A stretch of 64,000 nucleotides of DNA, taken from contig NZ_CP139960.1 in NCBI RefSeq assembly GCF_034424215.1, positions 4,588,001 to 4,652,000 of the forward strand. The letters are read 5' to 3'. This document shows positions 1 through 17,866 of this stretch, piece by piece. The position numbers and the translations under genes were made by a program. Below the pieces are notes generated by a model. The model searched no databases, was not told the DNA's origin, and saw only the letters and a list, made by a program, of their open reading frames with translations. The stretch is from Niabella yanshanensis (GTDB taxonomy: Bacteria > Bacteroidota > Bacteroidia > Chitinophagales > Chitinophagaceae). How positions within the stretch are numbered: position 1 is the stretch's first letter; each line of letters begins with the position of its first letter.

Positions 1-829
1 TGCTGACTGCCACTTTGGTATAGTGATTGGCGATATTAGACCCAAGACCTCTTGATCCTGAGTGGGAAAGCAGTCCGAGGTATTGCCCTGCCGGTAATTG
101 CAGGATGCCATCCGTTTCGGCAATGCTTACCTCACCAAATTCAACAAAATGATTGCCGCTTCCACTGGTACCCAGTTGTTTCCAGGCCCGTCCATGTAAT
201 TGCTTTAACAAAGGCAGTAAGCCAAAGGCTTCATGATCCATCACTTCGTGATCAGCGGCCTGTTTAAACTGGGCGCCGCTACCAAATAGTGTCGCTTCAT
301 TGATCTCCCTCGCGAAATAATGCTCGCGTTGCACCAGCTCCTGGGGGTTGATGTCAAAAATGCTCAGGCACATCCTGCAGCCAATATCCACGCCCACGCC
401 GTAAGGGATCACAACGTTTTCAGTTGCCAGTACGCCTCCAATAGGCAGCCCGTAGCCGTGATGGGCATCGGGCATCAGTGCACCCGCTACTGCTACCGGC
501 AATTTAGCCGCCGTATACATTTGGTGCATGGCGCCTTCCTCTATATGTTCCTGTCCGAAAATATTAAATTGGATACCTGTTTGATTCAGCGAAATGCCAT
601 TGTGCTCTAACTCTTGTTGAGGCAACAGTTGATTAGCAATGACACCTAATATTTCATCAGTACTATAGTCTTGCGGTGAAGCCAGAATGCTGCTTAAAAC
701 GGCCAGCGCTGTTTCTTTGCTTTCATGTTTGTATGCTTTTTGCATAATATTCATAGCGATCGAAATAACGGGCCCTTCGGGATAACCGATATTTCTTAAT
801 TCCTTTCCGGTTAAGCTTAATTTGCTCAT
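1..829 (-). CDS. rtcB: RtcB-family RNA-splicing ligase, C-terminus outside the window
   Basis: GTP- and Mn-dependent RNA ligase that joins a 3'-phosphate or 2',3'-cyclic phosphate end to a 5'-OH end, acting in the cytoplasm on broken tRNA and other RNA. About 276 N-terminal residues are visible of the usual 460-480. The reverse-strand translation contains PDAHHGYGLPIGGV followed by GVGVDIGCRM, which carries the Asp and Cys metal ligands, then GTSGSGNHFVEF and LSHSGSRGLG with further metal-binding His. The nucleophile His lies beyond the window edge. The start at 829 begins MSKLSLTGKELRNIGYP. A 25-bp palindrome lies 60 bp upstream, so the gene probably has its own regulated promoter. The slipin gene lies upstream on the same strand. 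Family assignment is very secure; the physiological substrate is inferred. Confidence 0.95.
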   Translation of the reverse strand, partial: MSKLSLTGKELRNIGYPEGPVISIAMNIMQKAYKHESKETALAVLSSILASPQDYSTDEILGVIANQLLPQQELEHNGISLNQTGIQFNIFGQEHIEEGAMHQMYTAAKLPVAVAGALMPDAHHGYGLPIGGVLATENVVIPYGVGVDIGCRMCLSIFDINPQELVQREHYFAREINEATLFGSGAQFKQAADHEVMDHEAFGLLPLLKQLHGRAWKQLGTSGSGNHFVEFGEVSIAETDGILQLPAGQYLGLLSHSGSRGLGSNIANHYTKVAVS

Positions 830-888: not shown

Positions 889-913
889 AACTGTGCAATG
901 TTTTTGCACAGTT
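889..913. promoter_or_regulatory. Palindromic operator upstream of rtcB
   Basis: Perfect 10-bp inverted repeat, AACTGTGCAA and TTGCACAGTT, around a 5-nt spacer. The same element with the same spacing recurs at 2836-2860 before the WYL regulator. On the rtcB side the sequence after the palindrome (TTATACTACAATTTT) resembles the sequence following the second copy (TTCTACATAAAT), so both probably abut a promoter. The divergently encoded WYL regulator is the likely ligand; this is inference. Confidence 0.8.
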
Positions 914-1126: not shown

Positions 1127-2227
1127 TTATTTTGGGGCCACAAAGATCTGTTTTAACTGTTCCAGCAAAGCGCCATTCCCATTTACGCTGATATTGCTGA
1201 TCTTGTCAGCAATTTTTTCAACGTATTCCAGTTCCTTCAGCTTCCACAGCACTGCATTTTCTTCCATTAGCTTTGCCGTGTTTAACAGGCTTCTCGTACT
1301 GGCCGTTTCTTCCCGCCTGGTAATGGTGTTGGCCTGTGCTTTCTTTTCAGCTACCAATACCTGGTTCATGATCTCTTTCACATCGCCTGGGAGGATGATG
1401 TCCCTGATGCCAAAGTTTAGTACTTCAACACCCAGCGCAAATGCTTGTTGAGTAACAGCGCTCATTACAAAGGCTCCGATAGCTTCTTTCTTTTCCAGGA
1501 GCTCATCAAGGCCATAGCCGGAAATGTATTCACGCAACGCGAGTTGAAGCGCTACATATAATTGCTTATCGTAGTCTTTGTTTTGCAAAATAGCTTTCTC
1601 AATATCAGCAACCCTGAACTGGGCCCAGGCATTGATACGTAAAGCTGCCTTATCTTTGGTTAAAATTTCCTGCCCGTTGATCTCAAGCTGTTGTTGCCGG
1701 CTATCGACCCTCGCAATAAATACGGGAACCGCATTTTTCCACCAATAGTATACACCGCTGTCGAGCCGGCTGTTGTATTGGCCATCTACAAACAGCACCG
1801 CCTTTTCAAAGTTTTCAATGGTTACAGTTCTTACGAAAGGTTGCACCAATGCGTGTTGCAGCAGGCTTCTGTCTATATCGGCTGGAATATCTAAAACGGC
1901 AGTATTTACTTTTAGAAAGCTATAGTTAATAGCAATGGTTTTCCAGAAGGCGTATTCTCCCGCTTTTAAAGCAGCTTTCAATAAGCCGTTTTCAAATTGC
2001 AATACTAGCTCCTGGTCTTTTACCGTAAATACTTCCAGCATTGCTGCCAGCTCATCATCCTGTAACAGGAGGTTTAAAGCAATAGGTGGATTGAATACGC
2101 CCTGCCGGTTGTAAATGGTAACAGTTTCGTTCCATAACCAGTATGAGCCTTCAGTAATGAGGCGCTGGTACACGCCGTTCCTGAATACAAGACCCGTTTG
2201 ATAGGCGTTGATTTTTACCCTTTTCAT
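1127..2227 (-). CDS. Slipin/SPFH (band 7) family protein of the RtcB neighbourhood
   Basis: 366-residue SPFH-type protein. It starts MKRVKINAYQTGLVFRNGVY and lacks the strong N-terminal membrane helix of classical slipins, but keeps the band-7 core (EILTKDKAALRINAWAQFRV, then REYISGYGLDELLEKKEAI) and the downstream helix with VEVLNFGIRDIILPGDVKEI. A helical segment rich in Glu, Lys and Ala follows (about 295-330), typical of SPFH oligomerisation. SPFH proteins form scaffold rings or arcs, usually at membranes. Slipins recur next to rtcB in bacterial genomes and are thought to belong to RNA-repair modules, but their role there is not established. A roughly 590-nt leader containing two permuted tRNA-like units precedes the gene. 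Family call is secure; function is inferred from context. Confidence 0.88.
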   Translation of the reverse strand: MKRVKINAYQTGLVFRNGVYQRLITEGSYWLWNETVTIYNRQGVFNPPIALNLLLQDDELAAMLEVFTVKDQELVLQFENGLLKAALKAGEYAFWKTIAINYSFLKVNTAVLDIPADIDRSLLQHALVQPFVRTVTIENFEKAVLFVDGQYNSRLDSGVYYWWKNAVPVFIARVDSRQQQLEINGQEILTKDKAALRINAWAQFRVADIEKAILQNKDYDKQLYVALQLALREYISGYGLDELLEKKEAIGAFVMSAVTQQAFALGVEVLNFGIRDIILPGDVKEIMNQVLVAEKKAQANTITRREETASTRSLLNTAKLMEENAVLWKLKELEYVEKIADKISNISVNGNGALLEQLKQIFVAPK

Positions 2228-2427
2228 AATATATTGTTTTTGGTTTTAAACATTATTAATATCAGTAGGCATTCCAGGCGGCAACCGATACACAGCGGAG
2301 AAAAACGAACTGAGATTTCAGATCATGCGGTTCTTCAAAAATTGCTGCAACGGCCGAATTGCTACATTTTATAAAAAAGCGAATGCCATTCAAATCAGGT
2401 CAGCTTTCCTGCAGGCTTAGTACCGGT

Positions 2428-2462: not shown

Positions 2463-2510
2463 GGCCGCCTGGCGCTTTACTGAACGCATTGATAAAGCAG
2501 TGCGTGCTGC

Positions 2511-2582
2511 TGTTTCCAGATTTTCAGTCTGGTGTTCTGCCATTGAACCATCCGAACTCATCGGAACGGGATTCGAACCCGT
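2511..2582 (-). tRNA. Circularly permuted tRNA-Phe(GAA)-like unit
   Basis: Read 5' to 3' on the minus strand the order is T arm (ACGGG, loop TTCGAAT, CCCGT), 3' acceptor strand TCCGA, 5-nt loop TGAGT, 5' acceptor strand TCGGA, TG at positions 8-9, D arm (GTTC, AATGGCA, GAAC), A26, complete anticodon arm (CCAGA, CTGAAAA, TCTGG; anticodon GAA), then AAACA as a variable loop. In linear order the T arm comes first, so the molecule is opened between positions 48 and 49. Every stem pairs, but only five acceptor pairs form. Size is 72 nt. It lies 1 nt downstream of the Lys unit. A normal-order reading fails because no T arm or 3' acceptor strand follows the anticodon arm. It could be a decayed relic; the intact stems argue against this. 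Confidence 0.7.
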
Positions 2583-2583
2583 A

Positions 2584-2659
2584 TAAAAGTCTGTTGCTCT
2601 ACCTGGTTGAGCTACTTCGTACAAAACGAAGGGGGGAGTCGAACCTCCAACACACAGAT
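2584..2659 (-). tRNA. Circularly permuted tRNA-Lys(UUU) opened in the anticodon loop
   Basis: Minus-strand order: A38, anticodon 3' strand TCTGT, 5-nt variable loop GTGTT, T arm (GGAGG, TTCGACT, CCCCC), 3' acceptor strand CTTCGT, 5-nt linker TTTGT, 5' acceptor strand ACGAAG, TA, D arm (GCTC, AACCAGGTA, GAGC), A26, anticodon 5' strand ACAGA, loop CTTTTA with anticodon TTT at 34-36. All tRNA segments have standard lengths. The anticodon stem (5 bp), acceptor stem (6 bp) and D stem (4 bp) pair perfectly; the T stem has one A-C mismatch. Total is 76 nt. Permuted tRNA genes are established in some algae and archaea, and are matured after the ends are joined into a circle. Here the break lies in the anticodon loop near residues 37/38 and the neighbouring gene is an RtcB ligase. 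Whether it is transcribed, joined or aminoacylated cannot be read from the sequence. Confidence 0.82.
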
Positions 2660-2835
2660 CCTGGCGCTATACTTCGTGTATCCATAACAGCATACAGAAC
2701 GTTACTACGCCTGCACTGTGCTGCCTGCAATACAGCTACCTGGTTTATGCATACCGGAGCAATAGCTTGTTTTGCCTTCCGGCTATATGTTGATCAAAGA
2801 ACTTTTTTGTTGTTGCTAAACAAAGATTTATGTAG

Positions 2836-2860
2836 AACTGTGCAATCATTTTGCACAGTA
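2836..2860. promoter_or_regulatory. Second copy of the operator, between the WYL gene and the slipin leader
   Basis: AACTGTGCAA, spacer TCATT, TTGCACAGTA: the palindrome seen at 889-913 with one outer mismatch and the same 5-nt spacer. On the minus strand it is followed by TAAATCTTTG (about 2821-2830), close to the Bacteroidota -7 element, which would start the leader containing the permuted tRNAs. On the plus strand the WYL start at 2896 lies 36 bp away. The site could serve both directions and allow autoregulation. Confidence 0.8.
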
Positions 2861-2895: not shown

Positions 2896-3921
2896 ATGCC
2901 TGTTAACAGAAATGCTTTGATCCGTTATCGCACCATCGATAAATGTCTCCAAAACCGTCGTCGTAAATGGACGATTGAAAACCTGATGGATGCCTGCTCC
3001 GATGCCTTATACGAATATGAAGGCATCGATAAACCGATCAGCCTGCGTACCATCCGGATGGACCTCAACGCGATGCGGAGTGATAAGCTCGGATATAATG
3101 CGCCGATTATTGTTGTCGATAAAAAATACTATACTTATGAAGATCCGGGTTTTGCCATCACTGATATTCCTCTTACAACCCAGGATTTGGGTGTGTTGCA
3201 GGAAATATCCCAACTGCTCCGACAGTTTAAAGGTTTCAGTCATTTTGATGAAATGAATGACATGCTGTATAAACTGGAGGATAAGATCTATAGCGAGCAC
3301 CACGATCAGCATGCCATTATTGATTTCGAAAAGAATGAGCAACTTACCGGCATTGACTGGCTGGATCCTTTACACAAGGCCATCATTAATAAACAAACCA
3401 TTAAGCTCACCTATCAGTCCTTCAAAGCCCGGCAGGCAGCAGATATCGTACTCTACCCTTATTTATTGAAAGAGTACCGCAACCGCTGGTTTTTATTGGC
3501 CATGAACCGAAAGGGTAAGGAGATTGCCACATTTGCATTAGACAGGATGCAGGCTATTACTGTACTGCCTGGTGAGCCTTATCGTTTGCATCGCAGTTTT
3601 CATCCACAGCTGTACTTTAAGGATATTGTTGGTGTAACCCGCAATATAGGAGATAGTCCCATCAAAATTACTTTTTTAACCAATGCTGTTCAGGCACCTT
3701 ATATTAAAACCAAACCTATCCATGCATCTCAAACTATTGTGGAGCACACCAAAGATGGTATCATATTTTCCATTACGGTAATTCCCAATTTTGAACTGGA
3801 ACGCGAACTGATCGGTTTTGGCGAAGGTCTTACTGTTCTGAGCCCGCTTTTTTTTGTTCAGCGAATTAAGAAGAAAGTAAAATTGCTGTATGATAACTAT
3901 TTTGCAGAAACCAATGAATGA
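2896..3921 (+). CDS. WYL-domain transcriptional regulator of the rtcB locus
   Basis: 341 residues. N-terminal winged-helix DNA-binding domain (about 1-75, with SLRTIRMDLNAMRSDKLGY as the recognition region), a linker helix region, then a WYL ligand-binding domain (about 155-220) with VLYPYLLKEYRNRWFLLA and ATFALDRMQAI. The W-Y-L triad reads W-F-L here. A C-terminal extension follows. WYL regulators are thought to sense nucleic-acid or nucleotide ligands and are frequent in conflict and RNA-repair loci. I chose ATG 2896 rather than an upstream in-frame ATG at 2851 because the latter lies inside the operator palindrome and would add a hydrophobic stretch absent from the family. It is the best candidate for binding the two palindromes at 889 and 2836. 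Confidence 0.88.
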   Translation: MPVNRNALIRYRTIDKCLQNRRRKWTIENLMDACSDALYEYEGIDKPISLRTIRMDLNAMRSDKLGYNAPIIVVDKKYYTYEDPGFAITDIPLTTQDLGVLQEISQLLRQFKGFSHFDEMNDMLYKLEDKIYSEHHDQHAIIDFEKNEQLTGIDWLDPLHKAIINKQTIKLTYQSFKARQAADIVLYPYLLKEYRNRWFLLAMNRKGKEIATFALDRMQAITVLPGEPYRLHRSFHPQLYFKDIVGVTRNIGDSPIKITFLTNAVQAPYIKTKPIHASQTIVEHTKDGIIFSITVIPNFELERELIGFGEGLTVLSPLFFVQRIKKKVKLLYDNYFAETNE

Positions 3922-17779: not shown

Positions 17780-17865
17780 GCCCGGGTGGCGAAATTGGTA
17801 GACGCACTACCTTGAGGTGGTAGCGCTGCTAACGCGGCGTGCAGGTTCGAATCCCGTCTCGGGCA
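17780..17865 (+). tRNA. tRNA-Leu(GAG)
   Basis: 86-nt class II tRNA. Acceptor strands GCCCGGG and CTCGGGC pair with one G-U. D arm GCGAAATTGGTAGACGC. Anticodon arm CTACC, loop TTGAGGT, GGTAG; anticodon GAG. Long variable arm CGCTGCTAACGCGGCG region, T arm with GGTTCGAATC. Discriminator A; CCA is not encoded. It is followed at once by an intrinsic terminator. Confidence 0.95.
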
Positions 17866-17866
17866 C

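Follow-up and report, generated by a model that had tools for sequence, protein, structure and literature searches.

Upstream of the slipin and rtcB genes of Niabella yanshanensis, the parts of two tRNA-like folds are encoded in permuted order, which raises the question of whether they give working tRNAs or belong to an RNA of another kind. The window, the whole stretch of DNA analyzed here, comprises 64,000 nt of the 5.54 Mb chromosome (NZ_CP139960.1). Within it we find a conserved structured RNA upstream of slipin that contains two tandem permuted tRNA mimics, a pseudoknot and a long-range helix. To our knowledge, the roles of SPFH proteins in RNA repair and the substrates of RtcB beyond a few model bacteria are open; a conserved RNA heading slipin-rtcB operons offers an entry, by way of its protein partners and its response to tRNA damage, and a handle on how Bacteroidota sense or repair broken tRNAs.

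Two Permuted tRNA-Like Units Lie between the WYL Gene and slipin

A sequence-only reading of this DNA had placed the units in an RNA-repair locus, and this holds: Pfam identifies slipin and rtcB in the genes that follow them. Read along the minus strand, the order is the divergent WYL gene, a 668-base intergenic stretch that holds both units, slipin and rtcB; in the window and in relatives alike, a tRNA-like RNA lies beside SPFH and RtcB genes. The window slipin is 89% identical to that of Niabella hibiscisoli.

2..829, minus strand: rtcB RNA ligase, 483 aa at full length, running off the window (Pfam RtcB)
1127..2227, minus strand: slipin, an SPFH/Band 7 protein of 366 aa (Pfam Band_7, 1.4e-28)
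2896..3921, plus strand: divergent WYL-domain transcription regulator (Pfam WYL and WCX)

The fold of unit 1 resembles a tRNA opened at the anticodon loop, so that its parts run from the anticodon 3' strand through the variable region, T arm, capped acceptor stem and D arm to the anticodon 5' strand. In unit 2 the opening falls in the variable loop, and the order runs from the T arm through the capped acceptor stem and D arm to an anticodon arm of its own with a 7-nt loop. Every segment was found again at the position that the sequence-only reading had given it.

2590..2658, minus strand: unit 1 (covariation; Rfam YrlA, 40.1 bits)
2658-2654, minus strand: unit 1 anticodon 3' strand, TCTGT
2653-2649, minus strand: unit 1 variable region, GTGTT
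2648-2632, minus strand: unit 1 T arm
2631-2625, minus strand: unit 1 acceptor 3' strand, CTTCGTT
2624-2622, minus strand: unit 1 cap, TTG
2621-2615, minus strand: unit 1 acceptor 5' strand, TACGAAG
2614-2613, minus strand: unit 1 U8A9
2612-2596, minus strand: unit 1 D arm
2594-2590, minus strand: unit 1 anticodon 5' strand, ACAGA
2583..2589, minus strand: join of units 1 and 2, CTTTTAT
2516..2582, minus strand: unit 2 (covariation; YrlA model match)
2582-2566, minus strand: unit 2 T arm
2565-2551, minus strand: unit 2 acceptor stem, TCCGA/TCGGA around TGAGT
2548-2534, minus strand: unit 2 D arm
2532-2516, minus strand: unit 2 complete anticodon arm, CCAGA-CTGAAAA-TCTGG

Permuted tRNA-like RNAs of this kind escape a standard gene finder: ARAGORN, run on the plain window sequence, calls neither unit, and the Rfam tRNA model catches only part of unit 2 together with downstream bases (2495-2551). 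ARAGORN run on doubled windows was rejected as a test, because very many doubled pieces around both units were called tRNA; it was replaced by alignment-based covariation.

Covariation Supports the Permuted Order

A slipin scan of genome contigs retained 80 of 130 related loci, 55 of which carry two T arms 50-80 nt apart and no more than 720 nt upstream of slipin; no T-arm pair was detected in the other 25. Alignment A1, built without reference to structure, joins the window to 51 of these 55 loci (52 sequences; L045, L059, L070 and L076 are omitted, and L077 is kept though its unit 1 is unaligned). Under the permuted structure, 92.4% of its 2138 cells pair, vs. 67.5% in shuffles; changes on both sides occur in 38 of 42 pairs (31.6 in shuffles) and in 563 cells (171.5 in shuffles), and none of 500 shuffles reaches any of five measures. 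Sliding the pairing partners lowers the paired cells to 37-47%. The claim that the stems are intact, and with it the claim that the units are a maintained RNA element and not debris, is upheld by these compensatory changes across 52 loci.

The helices that exist only under the permutation carry the argument. All five pairs of the unit 1 anticodon stem covary, with 90.6% of cells paired, as do all seven pairs of its acceptor stem, with 86.3%; both are weak at the outermost pair, which is unpaired in 23 of 51 rows at the loop end of the anticodon stem and in 18 of 46 at the cap end of the acceptor stem. The ordinary-order alternative, in which the unit 1 acceptor 5' strand would pair with the unit 2 3' strand, gains no support in A1 (55.2% paired vs. 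53.4% shuffled). In 188 pairs of neighboring ordinary tRNA genes, pairing between the 3' acceptor strand of the first gene and the 5' strand of the second amounts to 49%, vs. 87% for the unit 1 acceptor strands in 46 gap-free rows. Since the permuted pairing covaries and the ordinary order stays at shuffle level, we conclude that the feature is real and maintained, and that both units fold into tRNA-like forms only when permuted, as had been claimed. The outcome that would have spoken against this claim, relatives with uncompensated stems or segments in ordinary order, was looked for in these loci and did not appear.

Unit 1 Keeps the tRNA Core, and Neither Unit a Fixed Anticodon

The names tRNA-Lys(UUU) and tRNA-Phe(GAA), which the sequence-only reading had attached to units 1 and 2, do not survive comparison. 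Y32-U33 is present in only 12 of 51 unit 1 rows and the anticodon loop is not conserved; the window is among those 12, which explains the UUU impression, and the apparent anticodon comes from the join at 2583..2589, a segment of 3-12 nt in relatives with no conserved sequence. Unit 2 has a seven-base loop with a paired stem in 44 rows, with U33 in 35 and a purine at position 37 in 43, and these 44 loops hold 23 different triplets. Of the marks of a permuted tRNA gene, the 3' part is encoded upstream of the 5' part with stems formed across the permutation, and a conserved anticodon loop with U33 is lacking in both units. CCA is found in none of the 52 unit 1 caps and in 5 of the 52 unit 2 caps, and ordinary Lys(UUU) and Phe(GAA) genes are present elsewhere in the genome. 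Local alignment of four pieces did not favor an origin from the Lys or Phe tRNA of this genome; the best-scoring tRNAs for the pieces were Thr, a tie of Phe, Pro and Thr, Ser, and Tyr, respectively.

What is kept is the core. In unit 1, U8, A9, A14 and A58 are found in all 51 rows that have a letter there, G15 in 45 and C48 in 44 of 51, and the D-loop GG in 51 of 52; these are the residues that hold the tRNA L shape. The units are probably protein-binding tRNA mimics, not working tRNAs.

The Units Belong to a Larger RNA

Alignment of the upstream region extends conservation well past both units, and the extent of this conservation suggests a larger RNA of perhaps about 550 nt.

2688..2736, minus strand: 5' domain of two conserved hairpins, 2736-2720 and 2718-2688 (alignment)
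2484..2511, minus strand: H-type pseudoknot, AGCAG-C-ACGCA-CTGCT-TTATCAA-TGCGT (pattern in relatives)
2464..2472, minus strand: 5' strand of a long-range closing helix, CCAGGCGGC (by eye)
2274..2282, minus strand: 3' strand of the same helix, GCCGCCTGG, 46 nt before the slipin start codon

The 5' motif pattern is matched in 47 of the 80 slipin loci, and alignment A2 comprises the window and 43 of these 47 (L043, L044, L045 and L070 omitted). One of the two hairpins is nearly invariant, and in the other a given pair has both of its bases replaced in as many as 16 of 44 sequences. The pseudoknot pattern occurs in 40 of 50 loci (50 of the 52 A1 rows), vs. a mean of 3.25 and a maximum of 9 in mononucleotide shuffles; its second stem varies on both sides, with CACC/GGTG, CATC/GATG and CAGC/GCTG in relatives and ACGCA/TGCGT in the window. 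The scripts for pseudoknot and helix patterns select for the motif and lean toward it, and of the two only the pseudoknot has a shuffle control.

The long-range helix is compensatory, by eye, between the window and L001, where it reads CCGGGCGGC/GCCGCCCGG. It pairs AAAGCCGG with CCGGCTTT in 12 loci, AAAGCCAG with CTGGCTTT in 8 and AAAGTTGG with CCAACTTT in one, and other variants exist. Both motifs are present in 33 of 80 loci and are fully paired in 27 of these 33, a count that has no control and whose patterns favor pairing. The 3' strand starts 34-62 nt before the slipin start codon in most relatives that have the helix and 75-157 nt before it in some. On the minus strand between the RNA and slipin, a scan that recognizes only sigma-70-type promoters and hairpin-plus-T terminators found no terminator and one promoter-like site, 2393-2366, at shuffle level.

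Distribution in Bacteroidota

We ran model R1 on 59 relatives and on 395 genomes of the phylum, scoring 48 and 7 first-look candidates per genome, respectively, so that absences are not firm. All 13 loci fetched from the relatives, at 150 to 60.6 bits, lie upstream of slipin, as do all 16 fetched from the phylum sample at 100 bits or more; with two loci common to both sets, these make 27 distinct strong matches, every one on the same strand as slipin and preceding it. Tandem ordinary tRNA genes also match R1, with scores of up to 85 bits, and the raw tallies of 59/59 and 394/395 genomes are therefore not counts of the element. One further match of 61.6 bits in a relative (G058) falls on ordinary tRNA genes (L134), and of 31 fetched loci with weaker matches and no slipin, 30 are ordinary tRNA genes and one is L178, described below. 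Within the genus, 7 of 17 genomes have a match of at least 85 bits, a patchy occurrence within the limits of the first-look filter.

Among the 80 slipin flanks, some of which are cut short, tblastn matches rtcB in 46, a WYL protein is matched in 24, and at least three ordinary tRNA genes on the same strand are found in 33. Arrays of ordinary tRNA genes lie on the same strand beside the element and slipin in L065 (up to 19 genes), L134, L162, L163, L165, L168 and L169; their appearance is that of a reserve tRNA operon tied to RNA repair. In L072 and L025, two RlaP nucleotidyltransferases occupy the space from slipin to rtcB. A search of 50,697 phage records gave one weak slipin match.

Relation to YrlA and Other tRNA-Like RNAs

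Burroughs and Aravind reportedly predicted, in 2016, a novel tRNA-like molecule as a partner of SPFH/Band-7 modules; the likeness to the present element is that of a tRNA-like RNA beside SPFH modules in RNA-repair systems.

The sequence-only reading was not aware of an accepted bacterial example of a permuted tRNA gene in an RNA-repair operon; the topology does, however, have a bacterial relative in the tRNA-like module of the YrlA family. In a sensitive scan with the Rfam YrlA model (RF02553), unit 1 scores 40.1 bits (E 2.2e-7; model positions 23-88 of 114) and unit 2 scores 29.8 bits, both below the gathering score (40.1 at best vs. 69 bits). The alignment covers the tRNA-like module, whose T arm, capped acceptor stem and D arm follow one another in the same order in both units, and nothing in the window matches the portion of the model that binds Ro. 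According to the accessible part of PMC8394870, this module resembles the D, T and acceptor arms and binds PNPase, the basal stem of the Y RNA binds the Ro60 protein Rsr, and Y RNA genes, YrlA among them, occur in some bacteria inside RNA-repair operons with rtcA-rtcB. The Niabella element shares with YrlA the order of parts, closed by a helix that corresponds to the anticodon stem, and the occurrence in RNA-repair operons; unlike YrlA, it has two modules in tandem inside a longer RNA, an anticodon arm belonging to the second module, and slipin as partner gene, with neither a match to the Ro-binding part in the window nor a Ro60 gene in its genome. Ro60 (PF05731) is absent from 38 of the 39 genomes searched, the Niabella genome included. 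The RNA thus shares the Y RNA module but, judged by gene content, is not a Ro60 partner.

The one genome with Ro60 is a relative (G022) in which a YrlA-type RNA lies downstream of the TROVE/Ro60 gene (L085 2566-2680; 34.3 bits, below gathering) and a slipin-linked tandem is carried separately (L138). L178 (1468-1595) holds a single YrlA-like unit whose acceptor hairpin is capped by UUCG; slipin has no match within the 3 kb fetched around it. L044 and L070 have a further permuted unit about 560-610 nt upstream of slipin, beyond the usual place; in L044 the sequence GAGTTACTTCG stands before it, a feature that the L085 Y RNA shares.

Single records give a lead, and no more, that in several phyla the slot before slipin may be occupied by tRNA-like RNA, its parts in either of two orders. 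In Pseudomonadota, a Photobacterium record shows a pair of adjacent ordinary-order tRNA-like genes upstream of slipin-rtcB (L188 4665-4806) and a Burkholderia record one (L187 4220-4292), all with odd anticodon loops. In a Subdoligranulum record (Bacillota), read by eye and from a single-sequence fold, the corresponding region shows a permuted arrangement of a T arm, an acceptor hairpin with a cap and additional arms. No tRNA-like match was obtained in a Citrobacter record with rtcR, slipin and RlaP or in an E. coli record with slipin and a nucleotidyltransferase.

The permuted tRNA genes of Cyanidioschyzon merolae and some archaea resemble the element in placing the 3' part upstream of the 5' part with a short intervening sequence and in keeping core tRNA residues, but the C. 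merolae genes keep U33 and give tRNAs via circular intermediates (PMC3978253, available in part), whereas the anticodon loop is not conserved in the Bacteroidota element. In Anabaena, a single repressor, TrcR, controls a tRNA array, rtcB and slipin in a translation-stress response (PMC10272220, main text in part). These components recur among the Bacteroidota loci, and the likeness supports a shared stress role; the difference is that the Anabaena regulator is an RHH repressor, vs. WYL here, and that its genes are not in one cluster, and the term tRNA-like is absent from the main text of that paper as far as it was available. Tandem permuted units were not found described in the partly accessible literature searched on permuted tRNAs and on tRNA-like RNAs linked to SPFH, slipin or RlaP.

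Palindromes near the RNA and rtcB

A genome scan for TGTGCAA-N5-TTGCACA without mismatch returned only two sites in 5.54 Mb (control 0).

2839..2857, no strand: palindrome TGTGCAATCATTTTGCACA, a candidate operator for both the divergent WYL regulator and the RNA
892..910, no strand: second perfect palindrome, TGTGCAATGTTTTTGCACA, upstream of rtcB

That the only two perfect sites adjoin the RNA and rtcB counts for a repair RNA under WYL control; against it, only 3 of the 12 WYL-bearing relatives checked (L020, L061, L063) were found to carry a palindrome of this kind, and none of them showed a promoter pattern of the Bacteroidota type. A third putative WYL operator of the Niabella genome, with one mismatch (C1:5087920-5087938, L084), lies inside or at the end of the open frame of a HAD-family hydrolase.

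Possible Functions of the RNA

Based on the fold, the neighboring genes and the YrlA likeness, we tentatively propose, with confidence a little short of even, that the element may be a tRNA-mimic RNA of the RNA-repair operon that acts like the YrlA module without Ro60. In this view, RNA damage would lead to its transcription under WYL control, and a protein of repair or decay would recognize it by its tRNA shape. The two L-shaped bodies could recruit tRNA-handling proteins to the slipin-RtcB machinery, with which the RNA would work much as a Y RNA does. It would not decode and probably would not be charged. The match of the YrlA model to both units, in the same order, counts for Y-RNA-like action; the scores below gathering and the missing Ro60 count against it, as does the fact that the link between the tRNA module and PNPase is known, in the sources as far as available, from other bacteria.

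The fixed position before slipin suits an mRNA leader equally well. It is possible, if somewhat unlikely, that the element acts in cis on the slipin mRNA, with the mimics and the pseudoknot binding RtcB or another tRNA-binding protein; such a leader would sense tRNA damage and, by feedback, tune translation or termination. Consistent with a leader are the same-strand position upstream of slipin in all 27 strong matches, the closeness of the long-range helix to the start codon in the window and in most relatives that have it, the lack of a detected terminator, and the precedent of tRNA-like operators such as that of thrS mRNA (PMC8394870, as far as accessible). However, the scan was confined to the promoter and terminator types named above and its one promoter-like site lies at shuffle level, the tRNA-like units upstream of slipin in other phyla vary in length and order, and the Y RNA of Salmonella is likewise co-operonic with its protein partner (PMC8394870, same limits).

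Less probable still is that the RNA serves as a decoy or sensor for anticodon nucleases, the unit 2 loop being cut in place of real tRNAs and resealed by RtcB. The tRNA-like unit 2 loop and its 23 triplets, as in a diversifying target, would fit this, and Leu-like D arms occur with Leu-type triplets in 7 of 12 cases vs. 5 of 35 (Fisher p 0.005, kinship uncorrected). Hughes et al. suggest that YrlA may be a competitive inhibitor of a nuclease (PMC7790460, available in part), but YrlA fragments were not detected in that Salmonella work, which in the accessible text implies that YrlA itself is not cut by the Salmonella nuclease; moreover, an anticodon loop proper is lacking in unit 1, U33 of unit 2 is not strict, and 25 of 80 loci lack a detected T-arm pair. 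An extension with as little likelihood is that of a large, Ro60-free repair RNA that would act as bait and sensor for tRNA-cutting nucleases in the service of SPFH-RtcB systems. Its presumed design, tandem permuted mimics with an exchangeable anticodon arm within a pseudoknotted RNA, we regard as equally speculative and improbable; if it were true, the permuted topology would let a cut RNA stay together for resealing by RtcB.

That the units are genuine permuted tRNA genes, matured by RtcB to working tRNAs as in red algae and some archaea, appears very improbable. The permuted order and the adjoining RtcB gene would agree with it, and the short caps do not exclude it, since known permuted tRNA genes have intervening sequences of 1-74 bp (PMC3978253, available in part), but the scarcity of Y32-U33 in unit 1 and the changing triplets of unit 2, the unit 1 caps without CCA (in spite of the few unit 2 caps that have it), the ordinary Lys(UUU) and Phe(GAA) genes and the patchy occurrence within the genus all speak against it. 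Debris of a decayed ordinary tRNA array, brought to mind by the tRNA genes near 33 of the 80 related loci, is the least credible reading of all, given the compensatory changes under permuted pairing in 52 loci and a cross-pairing of only 49% between neighbors in real arrays.

Elsewhere in the window, a lone tRNA gene lies at 17780-17866 on the plus strand; the Rfam tRNA model matches it at 46.6 bits, and ARAGORN finds its anticodon unassignable (reported as tg).
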